Positions 2,005-8,109 of a DNA stretch of 28,511 bases are shown here, one piece after another. Position numbers and translations under genes: made by a program. Source of the stretch: a virus; the IMG/VR virus record IMGVR_UViG_3300030202_000301, positions 1 through 28,511 of that record. The stretch is one strand, 5' to 3'. Every line of letters starts with the position of its first letter. Positions within the stretch are counted from its first letter, which is position 1. Under the pieces are notes generated by a model. It worked only from the letters and a program-made list of their open reading frames with translations, did no database searches and had not been told where the DNA came from.

Positions 2005-2353
2005 ATCCTGGGAATACTACAAAGAAGTTTACAAAGACATGATAAGTCTTGCTCAGTATCAGAGTGCTGCAGCTAAGACTGCAATGTACAAACACAATCA
2101 CAAGATACTTTACCCTGCACTTGGGTTAGCAGGTGAAGCAGGTGAGGTAGCCAACAAAGTAAAGAAGATGTTACGAGATGATAACTTAGATAAGAACGCT
2201 ATTGAATCTGAGCTAGGAGATGTCTTGTGGTATGCAGCTATGTTGTCTAAAGATTTAAATATACAGTTACATGATGTAGCTATGAAGAATCTAGAGAAAC
2301 TATATGGACGTAAAGAACGTGGAACTATACAAGGGGATGGTGACGAAAGATGA
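1994..2353 (+). CDS. mazG: MazG-like nucleotide pyrophosphohydrolase
   Basis: A 119-aa all-helical protein carrying the MazG metal-binding pattern: E48-x2-E51 in GEAGEV and E73-x2-D76 in ELGDVLWY. MazG-type enzymes convert NTPs or dNTPs to monophosphates. Phage copies have been proposed to clean the nucleotide pool or alter stringent-response alarmones. The start at 1994 has a GAGGAG site about nine bases upstream; the ATG at 2039 has none. The stop overlaps the ribonucleotide reductase start (ATGA at 2350). Placement between phosphoesterase and reductase indicates a role in nucleotide supply. The family call is secure; the substrate is not. Confidence 0.92.
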   Translation: MINESWEYYKEVYKDMISLAQYQSAAAKTAMYKHNHKILYPALGLAGEAGEVANKVKKMLRDDNLDKNAIESELGDVLWYAAMLSKDLNIQLHDVAMKNLEKLYGRKERGTIQGDGDER

Positions 2354-4242
2354 ACAATTACTTGCCAACTGACTACCAAGCTTTTATACATACTTCACGG
2401 TATGCTCGGTGGCTTGAGGACGAGGGAAGACGTGAGTCTTGGTCAGAGACAGTAGACCGCTACATGGGTAACGTTGTTGGTTATGACATCGATCATAAGA
2501 TTTACAATGCCTTGAGAGAAGCAATACTATCTCTAGAAGTTATGCCAAGTATGAGAGCAATGATGACTGCAGGTGCAGCGTTAGACAGAGATAACACTGC
2601 AGGTTACAACTGTAGTTATCTACCTGTAGATGACCCAAAGTCCTTCGATGAGGCTATGTTCATCCTCCTCTGTGGCACTGGAGTTGGGTTCAGTGTCGAG
2701 AGGCAGTTCGTCTCTAAGCTTCCAGAGATACCAGAACTCTTCGAGAGTGATACTACCATTGTGGTAAAGGACAGTAAGGAAGGGTGGGCTAAGGCTCTTC
2801 GACAAGTTATTGCTCTCCTTTATAGCGGTGAGATTCCTAAGTGGAATGTTAGTAGGATCAGACCTGCAGGTGCTAGACTAAAGACGTTTGGTGGACGTGC
2901 TAGTGGACCTGCTCCTCTGGTAGACTTGTTTAACTTTGTAGTTCATGTATTCAAAGAAGCACAAGGACGTAAGCTATCAAGCATCGAAGCACACGACATC
3001 ATGTGTAAGATAGGTGAGGTAGTTGTAGTAGGTGGTGTTAGGCGTAGTGCTATGATTAGTCTGTCTAACCTATCAGATGATAAGATGCGACACGCTAAGT
3101 CAGGTGAGTTCCCTTCTCATAGATACTTAGCTAACAACAGTGTAGCATACGTAGAGAAACCAGACAGTCTTTCATTCATGCGTGAGTGGATGGCACTAGT
3201 AGAATCAGGAAGTGGAGAGAGAGGTGTATTCAATAGGCAAGCGAGTAAGAATCAAGCTGCGAAGAATGGGAGACGTGATCCTAACTACGACTTCGGAACT
3301 AACCCCTGTAGTGAAATCATTCTTAGGCCGTATCAGTTCTGCAATCTTACAGAAGTTGTTGTCAGGGCTACGGATAGTGTGGATGATCTGGAGCGAAAAG
3401 TCCGTTTGGCAACAATACTGGGAACTATACAATCCACGTACACCAACTTCCCCTACCTGCGAAAAGTGTGGCAGAGGAATACAGAAGAAGAACGACTGCT
3501 TGGTGTGTCATTAACTGGTGTCCAAGACAATCCTCTTATGACTGCAAAGAACAAGGGATTAGACAAGACACTAGAAAGACTTCGAGAGGTTGCTGTAGCT
3601 ACTAATGCTGAGTGGGCTGAACGTCTTGGTATTAACTGTAGTGCAGCTATAAGTTGCAATAAACCTAGCGGAACTGTCTCCCAACTTGTTGACTCTTCTT
3701 CTGGTATTCATGCTAGGTATAGTCCTTACTATATCCGAACAGTAAGAGGTGACAACAAAGACCCTCTCACTCAGTTTATGAAGGATCAAGGTATACCAAG
3801 TGAGCCTTGTGTTTACAAACCAGATCAGACTACAGTGTTTAGTTTTCCAGTAAAAGCACCAACCAATGCTGTAGTAACATCTGACTTGTCAGCTATCGAT
3901 CAACTAGAAACGTGGTTGATGTATCAACGTCATTGGTGTGAGCACAAACCTAGCGTGACAATCAACGTCAAGAAAGATGAGTGGTTTGAGGTAGGTGCGT
4001 TTGTATACGAGCACTTTGATGAGATGTCTGGTGTAAGTTTCTTACCATACGATGATCACATCTATCAGCAAGCACCATACCAAGAGTGCACTAAAGATGA
4101 ATACAAAGAACTTATGAAGACAATGCCTAAGAGTATTGATTGGACTAAGCTATCAGAGTATGAGTCAGAGGATACAACTAAGTCTAGTCAGACATTCGCA
4201 TGTACTGGCGAAACATGTGAGATTGTAGACATATCAGCGTAG
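2350..4242 (+). CDS. nrdJ: Class II (adenosylcobalamin-dependent) ribonucleoside-triphosphate reductase
   Basis: A 630-aa monomeric-type class II reductase, which uses coenzyme B12 to make the thiyl radical and converts ribonucleotides to deoxyribonucleotides. Visible residues are C88 (NCSY) and C331, the redox pair; C320 within NPCSE, the radical cysteine, with E322; PSGT at 439-442 for phosphate binding; and a C-terminal C618-x4-C623 pair that would pass electrons to the active site. The C320/C331 spacing of 11 equals that between C408 and C419 in the Lactobacillus leichmannii enzyme. It is shorter than that enzyme (739 aa), with no intein or frameshift. No small subunit or activase gene is nearby, as expected for class II. 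It implies a host that has or imports cobalamin. Confidence 0.95.
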   Translation: MNNYLPTDYQAFIHTSRYARWLEDEGRRESWSETVDRYMGNVVGYDIDHKIYNALREAILSLEVMPSMRAMMTAGAALDRDNTAGYNCSYLPVDDPKSFDEAMFILLCGTGVGFSVERQFVSKLPEIPELFESDTTIVVKDSKEGWAKALRQVIALLYSGEIPKWNVSRIRPAGARLKTFGGRASGPAPLVDLFNFVVHVFKEAQGRKLSSIEAHDIMCKIGEVVVVGGVRRSAMISLSNLSDDKMRHAKSGEFPSHRYLANNSVAYVEKPDSLSFMREWMALVESGSGERGVFNRQASKNQAAKNGRRDPNYDFGTNPCSEIILRPYQFCNLTEVVVRATDSVDDLERKVRLATILGTIQSTYTNFPYLRKVWQRNTEEERLLGVSLTGVQDNPLMTAKNKGLDKTLERLREVAVATNAEWAERLGINCSAAISCNKPSGTVSQLVDSSSGIHARYSPYYIRTVRGDNKDPLTQFMKDQGIPSEPCVYKPDQTTVFSFPVKAPTNAVVTSDLSAIDQLETWLMYQRHWCEHKPSVTINVKKDEWFEVGAFVYEHFDEMSGVSFLPYDDHIYQQAPYQECTKDEYKELMKTMPKSIDWTKLSEYESEDTTKSSQTFACTGETCEIVDISA

Positions 4243-4733: not shown

Positions 4734-4770
4734 AAAAAACCCCCAAGGAGAAATCCAAGGGGGTTTATTT
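4734..4770. terminator. Bidirectional intrinsic terminator between convergent gene blocks
   Basis: AAACCCCC (4737-4744) pairs with GGGGGTTT (4759-4766), and the inner GG/CC can extend the hairpin. On the plus strand it is followed by TTTATTTTATTT, and on the minus strand the stem runs into six T residues. It sits exactly between the last plus-strand gene and the last minus-strand gene, so it can stop transcription from both sides. Confidence 0.9.
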
Positions 4771-4997
4771 TATTTCTTTTTTCTTTTCTTACCAGAGGCG
4801 GTTACTGACCACTTGACTCTCTTTGGTCCTGTTTTCTTTCTGGCCTCGCTCTTTGATATTTTTCCTGCAACTGCTTTAGGTCTACACGCAGGGTAGCCTC
4901 TGCGCTTATCTTTCTTCCCTGACCTTCCACACTTTTTACCTGTCTTGACATCACGCCAATCCTCTTTGAACCATTTACCTAGACCGCCTTTAGCCAT
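4770..4997 (-). CDS. Small basic protein, 75 aa (DUF5872-like)
   Basis: A lysine- and arginine-rich protein starting GLGKWFKEDW, with two cysteines (C23, C38) flanking a basic segment and RRGYPAC, and ending in a run of lysines. The GLGKWFKExW...CGRS...RGYP pattern is one I associate with DUF5872 proteins of marine phages; that link is from memory, not a search. The strong positive charge suggests nucleic-acid binding. The gene is the last of the minus-strand unit; its start lies one base after the stop of the 58-aa ORF upstream. No experimental function is known to me. Confidence 0.75.
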   Translation of the reverse strand: MAKGGLGKWFKEDWRDVKTGKKCGRSGKKDKRRGYPACRPKAVAGKISKSEARKKTGPKRVKWSVTASGKKRKKK

Positions 4998-4998
4998 A

Positions 4999-5175
4999 TC
5001 ACTTCTTCTTTTTCTTTACTCTGTTATCCTTGCCTTTCCATCCACCGCCTTTAGACTTGTACCACTTAGCAGCCCAAGCATTTGCGTATGCTGAAGGATA
5101 GACCTTGAACTTCTTCTTAGCTTCTGCCTTGGCTCTAGACCACAGAGCAGGTTTTGTAGGTGTAGGACTTGCCAT
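4999..5175 (-). CDS. Small basic protein, 58 aa, YPSAYAN motif
   Basis: This ORF of 58 codons falls below common length cut-offs. It reads ATG at 5175 to TGA at 4999. It is basic and aromatic, with the core KKFKVYPSAYANAW followed by AAKWYKSKGGGW and a five-lysine tail. The Y-P-S-A-Y-A-N-x-W core recurs in small proteins of marine phages and some algal viruses in my recollection, which argues it is a real gene. It is two bases downstream of the 31-aa ORF and one base upstream of the next gene, so it fits the tight operon. Function unknown; nucleic-acid or virion binding is a guess from charge. Confidence 0.75.
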   Translation of the reverse strand: MASPTPTKPALWSRAKAEAKKKFKVYPSAYANAWAAKWYKSKGGGWKGKDNRVKKKKK

Positions 5176-5177
5176 GA

Positions 5178-5273
5178 CTAAACCTTACACACACACTCAG
5201 GGCAGCACTTACGATTCAACATAGCACACCCAACTCGTTTGATATACTTCCATATCCACTTTACTATATTCAT
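5178..5273 (-). CDS. Cys-rich small peptide, 31 aa
   Basis: A 31-codon ORF from ATG at 5273 to TAG at 5178. The start overlaps the stop of the preceding gene as ATGA, and the next gene begins two bases after its stop. This perfect fit into the operon is the main reason to call it. The first half (KWIWKYIKRV) would form a cationic amphipathic helix with three aromatics. The second half holds five cysteines (C16, C24, C25, C28, C30), arranged as CC-x2-C-x-C, which could bind metal or form disulfides. It could act on the membrane, but no function is known. Confidence 0.6.
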   Translation of the reverse strand: MNIVKWIWKYIKRVGCAMLNRKCCPECVCKV

Positions 5274-5461
5274 AATGTAACTCCTATTTCTACACATGTA
5301 CCTTGTGAAAAGATACCTCTTGAAATAAATCTATCTACCATACTACGCATCTCAACTCTACATGTTTCCCTAGTTCTGTATAAGTTTTCATTGTTAACTG
5401 TGAGAGTACACGTTGTTGAGTTTGTAGGTGTCATGCAGAACATGACTATAGCTAACCACAT
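5270..5461 (-). CDS. Small exported two-Cys protein, 63 aa (copy A)
   Basis: Unrecognised protein with a short hydrophobic N-terminus (MWLAIVMF) that looks like a signal or membrane segment. The body contains C34-x2-EM at 34-38 and a second cysteine at C56 followed by VEI. The same pattern, C-x2-EM and a later C-x-E-[IV], occurs in the 57-aa protein encoded at 6766-6939, which also begins MW plus hydrophobic residues. The two may be diverged relatives. Two extra cysteines are C9 and C18. The start overlaps the upstream barrel gene as TGATG. Export and a disulfide are inferences; no function is known. Confidence 0.6.
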   Translation of the reverse strand: MWLAIVMFCMTPTNSTTCTLTVNNENLYRTRETCRVEMRSMVDRFISRGIFSQGTCVEIGVTL

Positions 5462-5826
5462 CAGAAACTAAAGGTAGCCCCTACAGTTACGTCACCAAAT
5501 TCTAGGTCTGCATCTGTTGAAACTTCTGTATATAGATTGATATTAGTGTTAGCTATTTCATAGTCTGCAGTGAAGTCTAGACCCTGAAAGATGTCACCCT
5601 CATCAAGAGTTAACATATCAATGTCTGTGGCTACACTTAAGCCAATACCTAGTGCAGTTACTCCTGCAGATGGTGTCAATTCCCATACCCATTCTTCTAC
5701 ACCAGTAGTATAGTTGAGGTCAGTCTCTGCACCAATAGATAAAGTCTGTCCTGCTACAGAGAAGTCCATAGCTGATGTGGACGTTGCTGCTAACATAGCG
5801 GCTGTTACGATTGCTGTTGTTTTCAT
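5461..5826 (-). CDS. Predicted exported small beta-barrel (outer-membrane-protein-like), 121 aa
   Basis: The protein starts with a clear Sec signal peptide, residues 1-19, with cleavage after STSA. The rest, about 100 residues, is built of alternating polar/hydrophobic beta-strands and acidic turns, and it ends TFSF. A terminal aromatic Phe is the hallmark of Gram-negative outer-membrane barrels recognised by the BAM machinery. The start at 5826 is preferred over 5844 because AGGA precedes it by seven bases. It is too small for a porin trimer, but an OmpX- or OmpA-barrel-sized protein is possible. It sits in the late lysis cassette just after spanin and a basic protein. A role in lysis, superinfection exclusion or surface masking is conjecture. 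Confidence 0.7.
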   Translation of the reverse strand: MKTTAIVTAAMLAATSTSAMDFSVAGQTLSIGAETDLNYTTGVEEWVWELTPSAGVTALGIGLSVATDIDMLTLDEGDIFQGLDFTADYEIANTNINLYTEVSTDADLEFGDVTVGATFSF

Positions 5827-5837
5827 TGTATTATCCT

Positions 5838-6089
5838 TTACCATTTTACTTTAGCAGCCCAATATGCTGCACTCATTTTTCCCTTTTTAATATTCTTAGC
5901 ATGTCTAGCACGAAAAGCCTTATTCCTAGCTGAACCTTTAGGGCTTCCTCTGACACCTTTCTGACCAAACCTGATAACCTTTTCTTTTCCATTTGAACAT
6001 GCCTTTACTACGTGTGATTTACTAGGATGATTAGGCGTAGCTCTAGGACTATTGCACTTCATCTTTGACTTGTTAAGTCGTGCTGCCAT
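5838..6089 (-). CDS. Small basic protein, 83 aa (KSHVVKAC / ARHAKNI type)
   Basis: A strongly basic protein with two cysteines (C12, C31) and the segments KSHVVKAC, RFGQKGV, ARHAKNIKKGKMSAA and a terminal AAKVKW. I recognise this pattern as a recurring family in marine phages and large algal viruses without a known activity. The start at 6089 has an AGGAG site eight bases upstream, inside the 3' end of the spanin gene, which it overlaps by 17 bases. Charge and abundance of Lys/Arg suggest it binds DNA or RNA or is a minor virion component. There is no signal peptide or membrane segment. Confidence 0.75.
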   Translation of the reverse strand: MAARLNKSKMKCNSPRATPNHPSKSHVVKACSNGKEKVIRFGQKGVRGSPKGSARNKAFRARHAKNIKKGKMSAAYWAAKVKW

Positions 6090-6459
6090 CTTTCTTTCTC
6101 CTTAACGTTGCAATAAGAGTAAGTAAACCACGTCCCATTTCCTGTGGACTAGGTGCTAGCCAACCTAGTACTAGAAGTATCAATACCCAAGGTGGAATCT
6201 CATTTATATTTATGTTTCCCACATTTTCTGTACTTACTTTATTTTTATCATTACTTTGATTTAGGTTTCCTTCAAGAGTCTGTACACTAACTTCTTGATC
6301 TGTATTGTTTGTAGTACCTATTGTTTGTGAGTTTGTTTTACCTGCCTGTACGTTAGCATTGACACTAGGTCCACCCCCACCGCCAAGTAGGTTCATTGGA
6401 TTCAACATACAACCTGCTAGTAGACTACCTAGAATCAGACTTGCTATAAGATTCCTCAT
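6073..6459 (-). CDS. Putative unimolecular spanin (u-spanin) lipoprotein
   Basis: A 128-aa protein with a lipoprotein signal peptide ending in the lipobox LAGC (C17), a low-complexity Asn/Gly/Ser/Gln-rich middle region (residues 25-88) and a C-terminal transmembrane segment at about 89-103 followed by a basic tail. This layout, an outer-membrane lipid anchor at one end and an inner-membrane anchor at the other, is that of u-spanins such as T1 gp11, which fuse the two membranes in the last step of lysis. It overlaps the holin 3' end by 35 bases and has its own AAGGG site. The call rests on topology and position, not on a sequence match. Confidence 0.72.
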   Translation of the reverse strand: MRNLIASLILGSLLAGCMLNPMNLLGGGGGPSVNANVQAGKTNSQTIGTTNNTDQEVSVQTLEGNLNQSNDKNKVSTENVGNININEIPPWVLILLVLGWLAPSPQEMGRGLLTLIATLRRKKDGSTT

Positions 6460-6682
6460 GTATCACCCTTGTTGGAGTCACTGTTGTCTTAGATTCTTTG
6501 CCCATCCATATGCCAAAGCACCCTGTCAGAGCACCCATGCAAACAGATACTAGACCTGACTGTTGTATTGTTGGATCAGGTAAAGCCATATACCAATGTA
6601 CAGCCTGATATGTTAGTATAGTTACAGCCAACATCATCAGCCTTGGTATAACTTTCCAATCGTCAACTATTGTGTGTGCCAT
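6425..6682 (-). CDS. Putative holin, two transmembrane segments
   Basis: An 85-aa protein with transmembrane stretches at about residues 12-30 and 42-60, separated by a short acidic turn (PDPT), and a charged C-terminal tail. Size and topology fit a class II holin, which forms the inner-membrane lesion that starts lysis. It lies between the endolysin (upstream) and spanin (downstream), as expected. I chose the ATG at 6682 (MAHTIVDDW) over 6694 because GAGGAAG directly precedes it; the extra MRGR is less likely. A dual start, as in some holins making an antiholin with added positive charge, cannot be excluded, since the longer form would add two Arg residues. Confidence 0.72.
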   Translation of the reverse strand: MAHTIVDDWKVIPRLMMLAVTILTYQAVHWYMALPDPTIQQSGLVSVCMGALTGCFGIWMGKESKTTVTPTRVIHEESYSKSDSR

Positions 6683-6782
6683 TCTTCCTCGCATACTTTA
6701 TAGCTATGTTTTTACTACGAGTAATTATTATTACTTTACCGTTCTTATCATATACTACAAACTTATTATTTATTTCTATCAA
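6663..6782 (-). CDS. Possible small ORF with TTG start, 39 aa
   Basis: An open frame between the 57-aa protein and holin reads from TTG at 6782 (or TTG at 6788) to TGA at 6663. The residues are coherent: a beta-hairpin-like FVVYDKNGKVIIITRS followed by KNIAIKYARKNG, which resembles small DNA- or metabolite-binding phage proteins. It fills an otherwise empty gap and overlaps both neighbours slightly. There is no ATG and no well-spaced ribosome site (GAGG abuts the TTG), so it is less sure than the other small ORFs. Confidence 0.4.
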   Translation of the reverse strand: MIEINNKFVVYDKNGKVIIITRSKNIAIKYARKNGTHNS

Positions 6783-6939
6783 CCTCAAAGCAATGTACCG
6801 CTGACTTGCTGTTCGTTACCATTACTCTTGCTCTTACCATCTCTTCTTTACAGGCTTCCTCTGATCCGTAAGTACCTATTTGGTAGTACTCGAACTCATT
6901 CGTCCCCACTAGAAACTGCATCCACACGAGGAACCACAT
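6766..6939 (-). CDS. Small exported two-Cys protein, 57 aa (copy B)
   Basis: An ORF of 57 codons from ATG at 6939 to TAA at 6766, below common length cut-offs. Its start overlaps the upstream gene's stop as TGATG. It begins with MWFLVWMQFLVG, a short hydrophobic stretch that may be a signal or anchor, then has C30-x2-EM and C50-x-EV. This matches the pattern of the 63-aa protein at 5270-5461. Proteins of this form next to phage lysis genes are familiar to me but uncharacterised. A periplasmic domain with one disulfide is plausible. Confidence 0.65.
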   Translation of the reverse strand: MWFLVWMQFLVGTNEFEYYQIGTYGSEEACKEEMVRARVMVTNSKSAVHCFEVDRNK

Positions 6940-7415
6940 CACCATCTACCTTGCTGTTTGCCGATGAGGTAGAATACCAATAGTAGTATGCCGCCCCCAA
7001 GGATAAAGATAACACCACCAATACTGAAATTAATAATCGCATCTATTCTCTCCTGCTTCTTATAAAGTTCTTCTTTTCTTTGTCTACGCATTTTAGCTTC
7101 AATCTGTAAGACTTCTTCCCATGCACTAGGACCATAGTTCCAAGAGATGTGATCTTTTATCTCTTGACGCATCTGCTCCATCTTCTTCTTGTTAGCAAAT
7201 ATCTCTAGAGCAGTCTCTTCGTCACTACCTTTGAACGTTTGTTTCCACCAAGGAGGATTCTTTTCTCGTTCTTCTAGATTAGTAAAGTCAGAGAAAGCTT
7301 TACCCCAGTTGGCAAGCTGACCTGTCATATCCTGTAAGTCTCTACCTGCACCAATCGCACCCTTGAGTGCTTTGAATGCGCCAGTTGCCATTGCAACACA
7401 AGTTACTGGGTCCAT
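6939..7415 (-). CDS. C-terminally membrane-anchored protein, 158 aa
   Basis: Unrecognised protein in the lysis block. The N-terminal 45 residues are Ala/Gly-rich and mildly amphipathic. A charged helical middle (residues about 65-126, many Glu/Lys/Arg, likely coiled coil) leads to one strong transmembrane segment at about 128-150 and a short GKQQGRW tail. The start overlaps the stop of the 75-aa gene as TAATG. A tail-anchored coiled-coil protein beside holin and endolysin could regulate lysis or join a membrane complex with the 75-aa protein, which has the mirror topology. That is an inference from layout only. Confidence 0.65.
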   Translation of the reverse strand: MDPVTCVAMATGAFKALKGAIGAGRDLQDMTGQLANWGKAFSDFTNLEEREKNPPWWKQTFKGSDEETALEIFANKKKMEQMRQEIKDHISWNYGPSAWEEVLQIEAKMRRQRKEELYKKQERIDAIINFSIGGVIFILGGGILLLVFYLIGKQQGRW

Positions 7416-7642
7416 TACTTATCTCTTAGTGCTTGCTCTATGTTGTCTAGTTTGTTGAAGATTGCCTTGACAGTTTCTTTTAGTTCTTTCATCTCTCTGT
7501 CGTAGGCTAGTCTGTTAGATTCATACTGTGCTTGTAATACTGCAATGTCTCTCTCGTTCTTTGTTGACTTCATAAATAGAAACCATACAACAAACGCAAG
7601 AGGTGCGGCTAACCACTGGGCTATGAACTCTAACATCTCCAT
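7415..7642 (-). CDS. N-terminal TM plus coiled-coil protein, 75 aa
   Basis: One transmembrane segment at about residues 8-24 is followed by a heptad-like, charged helix (about 28-72) ending in a basic/acidic tail. The layout recalls XhlA-type holin-associated proteins and inner-membrane spanin subunits, but it has no diagnostic motif of either. It sits between endolysin and the 158-aa tail-anchored protein, with TAATG overlaps at both ends, so all three are co-translated. It could be a second holin-like or i-spanin-like component. Function not established. Confidence 0.65.
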   Translation of the reverse strand: MEMLEFIAQWLAAPLAFVVWFLFMKSTKNERDIAVLQAQYESNRLAYDREMKELKETVKAIFNKLDNIEQALRDK

Positions 7643-8109
7643 TACATTTTCTCGAAATGTGGGGCATCAATGAAGGGTCTTCGGGATTGTGATCTACGTA
7701 AGTCTATATATGACATCATAGCCTCTTCTGAGGTTCCTGGATAGGTTCTTATGTCACCTTCACTCCAAGCTGCTCCCCACTTTATACTGCAACCTACTTC
7801 TTTAGCTGCTTCTTTGAAAGCATCACAGATGTCATCATACAAGTTCAGTTCCCATGACACATCTGGACCTACATACGCTACTACATCTACAGCATGACTG
7901 AATCCATCATCTTGTAGTAGGTGTTTAGACCTCATGGTTTGTGATCTTCCTGCAGCTACGTTAGCTTTCTGCTCTTCTAAAGTTCTGACTCCTTGCGTTA
8001 CTCCGAAGTCTACTTTAGAAAGTTTTATAGCTCTCTCAACTACTGCAGTCATATCTGGATGTACTCCTTCGAGTCTATCCAATGACCTTTGACTTAATCT
8101 AAAACTCAT
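7642..8109 (-). CDS. M15-family peptidase endolysin (L-alanyl-D-glutamate / D,D-peptidase type)
   Basis: A 155-aa zinc peptidase of the M15 type, which cuts peptide bridges in peptidoglycan and serves as phage endolysin. Visible landmarks are GVRTLEEQ at 40-47, S61-x-H63, S71-H72-A-V-D75, a WG pair at 111-112 and the final PHF with H151. The usual SxHxxxxAxD metal motif is stretched here: H63 and D75 are 12 residues apart instead of about seven, because of a QDDGFS insertion, and H72 is another ligand candidate. No signal peptide is present, so it needs the holin. The start overlaps little with upstream DNA and its stop overlaps the next start (TAATG). Confidence 0.88.
   Translation of the reverse strand: MSFRLSQRSLDRLEGVHPDMTAVVERAIKLSKVDFGVTQGVRTLEEQKANVAAGRSQTMRSKHLLQDDGFSHAVDVVAYVGPDVSWELNLYDDICDAFKEAAKEVGCSIKWGAAWSEGDIRTYPGTSEEAMMSYIDLRRSQSRRPFIDAPHFEKM

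Follow-up and report, generated by a model that had tools for sequence, protein, structure and literature searches.

The lysis region and the gene at 5461-5826

The window, that is, the whole stretch of 28,511 nucleotides analysed here, belongs to an IMG/VR virus record of 29,229 bases. Its closest isolate at the DNA level is Roseobacter phage CRP-4 (Cobavirinae, Zobellviridae), with which it shares 77% identity in parts of the region coding for portal, capsid and terminase. In cobaviruses, a group of roseophages encoding a B12-dependent ribonucleotide reductase, lysis genes adjoin the virion genes (PMC6775973, PMC6918029). At 2350-4242 of the window (see also loci L214-L216 and L229) such a reductase is encoded; copies 68-77% identical to it are found on contigs filed as Poseidoniales archaea, Verrucomicrobia and Dehalococcoidia, which are possibly viral contigs binned there. 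The features considered below are the following.

4740..4761 (-): terminator-like hairpin where the left (+) and right (-) gene arms converge (sequence)
5270..5461 (-): small exported-looking protein, 63 aa, with conserved cysteines (ORF, relatives at other loci)
5461..5826 (-): candidate small outer-membrane barrel, an exported six-stranded beta-protein of 121 aa (ORF, family, strand model, dN/dS)
5770-5826 (-): signal peptide of the candidate barrel, codons 1-19 (inspection)
5464-5769 (-): mature part of the candidate barrel, 102 aa (inspection)
5838..6089 (-): basic protein, 83 aa, phrog_7595, flanking the barrel cassette on its upstream side (PHROG match; 75% identical to CRP-4 gp31)
6073..6459 (-): unimolecular spanin (u-spanin) with an N-terminal lipobox LAGC and one C-terminal transmembrane segment (phrog_1804 Rz-like spanin, E 4e-5, and sequence)
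6425..6694 (-): holin candidate, 89 aa, with two hydrophobic segments (sequence; phrog_10198, of unknown function)
7642..8109 (-): endolysin of the peptidase M15 type (phrog_465, E 1e-53, and Pfam search)

Along the minus strand, the order is thus M15 endolysin, small membrane proteins, u-spanin, phrog_7595 gene, candidate barrel gene and 63-aa cysteine protein, the barrel gene being located near the 3′ end of the right-arm run. It starts with an ATG at 5826, just 3′ of an AAAGGAT ribosome-binding site read from the sequence, and its stop codon at 5463-5461 overlaps by one base the ATG of the cysteine gene (TGATG). No open frame is found on the plus strand over 5461-5826, where stops occur throughout. 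Pairs of relatives including the window gene have a median dN/dS of 0.085, indicative of strong purifying selection. Together with the start and the ribosome-binding site, this value establishes the open reading frame singled out in the earlier note as a real gene.

The association with the cysteine gene is recurrent: among 108 unique barrel genes, 67 have the same one-base overlap and 94 have a relative of the cysteine protein within 700 bp. The lysis region of the window actually contains two small exported-looking cysteine proteins of similar pattern (6766-6945 and 5270-5461), homologues of which occur elsewhere among marine phages, CRP-4 gp30 being one of them. The minus-strand arm ends with two small proteins of 75 and 58 aa, both very rich in Lys and Arg (4770-5175).

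The link with lysis genes extends beyond the window. A cell-wall hydrolase is found within 4 kb of the barrel gene (62 M15 endolysins, 9 SleB-type enzymes) in 71 of the 76 unique loci having at least 1.5 kb on both sides of it, a count that does not represent 71 independent events because ancestry is shared within lineages; the independent part amounts to three unrelated phage lineages and two endolysin types. Since gene order and flanks vary between these lineages, the link reflects more than one inherited arrangement. The gene therefore does lie among lysis genes, as had been noticed from the window alone, and it shares a lysis region with the spanin; the two are not immediate neighbours, however, as the phrog_7595 gene stands between them.

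As an accessory cassette, the barrel gene is optional. CRP-4 lacks it, the cysteine gene gp30 coming directly after gp31, the homologue of phrog_7595, and loci L240-L246 have the same empty junction. In L240, the spacer from the phrog_7595 stop to the next ATG is identical to the spacer preceding the barrel gene in L005. When loci were chosen by endolysin similarity alone, with at least 4 kb of downstream sequence, 38 of 54 carried the gene and 16 did not. Since only about 70% of the near relatives possess it, lysis does not require the gene.

A family of exported proteins with alternating strands

Scans of IMG/VR yielded 103 distinct proteins of the family, 98 of them complete and about 116-128 aa long, all from uncultured marine phage contigs. 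Three lineages are represented: Cobavirinae-like phages, HMO-2011-type phages (the TerL of locus L185 is 77% identical to that of CRP-9) and T4-like marine phages, the latter recognized by a gp41-type helicase. In T4-like relatives (L176:1839-4844 and, similarly, L152:6899-9723), a row of consecutive signal-peptide-like proteins, most of them lacking any Pfam or PHROG function, comes after the barrel gene. The curli protein CsgG, suspected from marine T4-like phages, was not found in the barrel-gene relatives.

Searches with tblastn using four diverse members as queries found no relative in 50,697 isolate-phage records, and in the bacterial and archaeal genomes of the GTDB collection no relative was confirmed by a single pattern scan; a distant host origin may nevertheless be envisaged. 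The window protein matches no Pfam, PHROG, NCBIfam or PADLOC family and no defence-system model, and a PDB sequence search with the family profile gave chance matches to DNA primase only. These proteins hence form a real, conserved and previously unannotated family, even if phage-carried exported barrel-like proteins as such are already known.

Three features had first attracted attention to the window protein: a Sec signal peptide, an alternating strand pattern and a C-terminal Phe. All three stand in the family at large. By inspection, the signal peptide corresponds to residues 1-19, with K2, the hydrophobic stretch AIVTAAMLAA and a cleavage site TSA|M, and such a peptide is present across 49 family representatives. 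In the member at L176:1387-1764, the signal peptide region contains a lipobox-like LAAC, and this protein might be a lipoprotein variant. In the strands, the mean 180-degree hydrophobic moment reaches 0.90, as compared to 0.39 +/- 0.12 in shuffled sequences (0 of 5000 shuffles reach 0.90), with strand limits taken from the sequence and a first model, which makes the test somewhat favourable. The C-terminal residue is F in all 98 complete members, versus 9% of the other ORFs in the same loci, and 94 of the 98 display the outer-membrane beta-signal pattern, versus 7% of the background.

The composition is unusual. The 102 residues of the mature window protein include 11 D and 8 E and not a single K, R or H; the mean net charge in the family is about -15. 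All strands have hydrophobic faces free of D and E, and indeed of any charged residue, in the weighted profile of the family. The polar faces mostly consist of small residues and are conserved above the hydrophobic faces in four of the six strands. Such a bias is usual for a membrane barrel and not for a soluble core; it is expected if the polar residues face the lumen and the hydrophobic ones the lipid. If the termini are periplasmic, the three outward loops are acidic, two of them, YTTGxE and DADLEFGD, being very conserved, and the inward turn S4-S5 is the most variable part of the profile.

Predicted fold and possible action at the outer membrane

The mature window protein was modelled with AlphaFold2 using the alignment of 49 family sequences (pLDDT 91.0, pTM 0.75). 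The model has six long strands of 9-14 residues (8-21, 26-39, 42-51, 61-71, 77-85 and 91-100) and an extra short N-terminal strand (2-5). A model including the signal peptide was poorer, with seven strands, one of which was the signal peptide itself, and the mature model was preferred. The top PDB fold matches are the outer-membrane barrels OMPLA and OmpF, followed later by the R. blastica porin and OmpG, with non-barrel proteins lower. These matches are weak, the best E value being 0.026 and the TM-score by query at most 0.55 among the matches listed, and the top 50 contain no eight-stranded barrel such as OmpA. Among viral models, Foldseek matched Q58LB0, a DUF680 protein of Prochlorococcus phage P-SSM4, with a probability of 0.97.

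Known single-chain outer-membrane barrels have eight strands, and six is below that number. Measured against a closed barrel of at least eight strands, formed alone or as an oligomer, the monomer model offers its six long strands and the short one. The structure prediction suggested in the earlier note, a search for a closed barrel of 6-8 strands, has thus given the strands, at high model confidence, and a closed barrel would be a possible arrangement of them. The outer-membrane barrel claimed there is supported in part. Signal peptide, amphipathic strands, beta-signal, an all-beta six-stranded model and fold matches led by barrels speak in its favour; the closed barrel and the outer-membrane location are putative. 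From export, beta-signal and strand chemistry, it is nonetheless quite probable that the protein inserts into the outer membrane.

The explanation that we tentatively prefer is a very small, Sec-exported outer-membrane beta-barrel or barrel subunit that would be made late and act at lysis or release. After export by Sec, the host BAM machinery would insert the protein into the outer membrane as a barrel, or as a subunit of a barrel, with six long strands. Its synthesis would most likely be late, alongside endolysin and spanin, if judged from the position of the gene. The protein would then loosen the outer membrane at lysis or release or, alternatively, make cell remnants unattractive to the released progeny. 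The role at lysis or release, taken by itself, is conceivable but uncertain. Some observations do not fit easily: besides the weak fold matches (E at least 0.026), 19 acidic and no basic mature residues would be odd for a barrel lumen, and a cyanophage look-alike (see below) is located outside any lysis cassette. A bolder version, in which late-made six-stranded subunits would form the smallest natural outer-membrane barrel or a shared pore, the outer-membrane counterpart of the holin beside endolysin and spanin, has to be regarded as a long shot.

Among the functions proposed earlier (superinfection block, altered outer membrane at lysis, receptor masking), the genome context would favour lysis or release. 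The main rival remains surface exclusion, where an outer-membrane barrel would block or alter the phage receptor and thereby close infected cells to additional phages. It would work as T5 Llp or the Cor proteins do, with a barrel in place of the lipoprotein. The outer-membrane features of the protein agree with such a role, an outer-membrane-associated exclusion protein of T5 is encoded beside the receptor-binding protein (PMC9586334), and an optional accessory cassette suits a competition gene. Surface exclusion appears unlikely all the same. If the protein blocked a particular receptor, variation from host to host would be expected, yet the loops YTTGxE and DADLEFGD, which would point outwards, are among the most conserved parts across phage lineages and variation is greatest in the inward turn S4-S5; besides, from its location in the lysis region, the gene would seem to be expressed late and not early. 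The conserved outward loops, along with unrelated endolysins nearby, rather point to a protein acting on the outer membrane in a general way, during lysis or release.

Two other rivals question the membrane barrel itself or its use. The hydrophobic faces could be the core of a soluble periplasmic beta-protein, a sandwich or a lipocalin-like barrel, binding a ligand or an envelope protein. The dyad pattern alone is compatible with this, as are the very acidic, soluble-looking composition and the weakness of the fold matches, closure and membrane insertion both being putative. What makes it rather improbable is the C-terminal F and beta-signal of nearly all complete members, the acid-free hydrophobic faces opposite a polar face of small, mostly better conserved residues, and the lead of membrane barrels among the fold matches. 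The protein could also be an auxiliary nutrient or ion channel supplying the infected cell, as proposed for the cyanophage DUF680 protein; DUF680/PhCOG173 has been suggested to act in phosphate limitation, as cited in PMC6224464, and an acidic lumen could select cations. This last idea is very improbable, considering that the neighbours are lysis genes instead of pstS or psbA, that a six-stranded barrel would be almost devoid of a pore unless oligomerized, and that sequence homology with the cyanophage family is undetectable.

Whatever the mechanism, an unannotated gene family of marine bacteriophages, mostly uncultured (Cobavirinae-like, HMO-2011-type and T4-like), gains a name and a test set, and naturally occurring relatives with and without the gene make its role testable. 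Should the protein work at lysis, a further component of outer-membrane disruption would be added to the spanins.

Comparison with known phage envelope proteins

Spanins are neighbours of the barrel gene and, like the action proposed here, theirs takes place at the outer membrane during lysis. They differ in crossing the periplasm, by means of a lipoprotein and a transmembrane segment, and the window has its own u-spanin. Lom of lambda is a textbook phage outer-membrane protein. Lom and Ail-type proteins resemble the window protein as phage-encoded exported beta-barrels of the late region; they have eight strands and long outer loops and belong to temperate phages, and no Pfam, PHROG or NCBIfam model of the Ail/Lom family matches the window protein. 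T5 Llp and the Cor proteins are likewise small, encoded by phages and present in the envelope of infected cells (PMC9586334), but they are lipoproteins without a barrel, and Llp binds FhuA from the periplasm.

The closest resemblance is with PF24653, named in Pfam 'Cyanophage outer membrane protein like beta barrel domain' (Phage_OMP; DUF680/PhCOG173). This type is present in 416 records, those of cyanophage isolates and of a small number of other marine phages; P-SSM4 has one member, PSSM4_188, of the same length as Q58LB0. Common traits are the signal peptide, a mature beta-protein of about 100 aa, the C-terminal F, a similar size and apparent strand number, and the occurrence in lytic marine phages. 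Membership of the barrel family in PF24653 was rejected on sequence: the model does not match the window protein, one of 28 family members gives an E value of 0.096, with no match above the cut-off, and the profile-profile comparison gives an hhalign probability of 2.8%. Moreover, the cyanophage genes examined are near psbA, pstS or nrdC and not in a lysis cassette, and their products are less acidic (mean net charge -8 versus -15). In S-SCSM1 (L206:1438-2366) and SynMITS9220M01 (L213:884-1806), two tandem genes of the PF24653 type lie beside a phosphate-transport (pstS-type) gene. The particle proteome of S-SZBM1 has been reported to include a DUF680 protein (PMC9146016), whereas the DUF680 protein of S-TIM4 is listed as not particle-associated. 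When S-TIM4 was evolved on Synechococcus WH8102, mutations in its DUF680 gene rose to about 100% in the populations, and many of these were disruptive (PMC6224464), which implies that carrying a gene of this kind can entail a cost in certain hosts. With 416 records carrying this look-alike, and with Lom, the earlier idea that few lytic phages carry an outer-membrane protein can no longer be held. Taken together, the barrel family and PF24653 rather suggest that lytic marine phages commonly carry small exported beta-proteins destined for the outer membrane.
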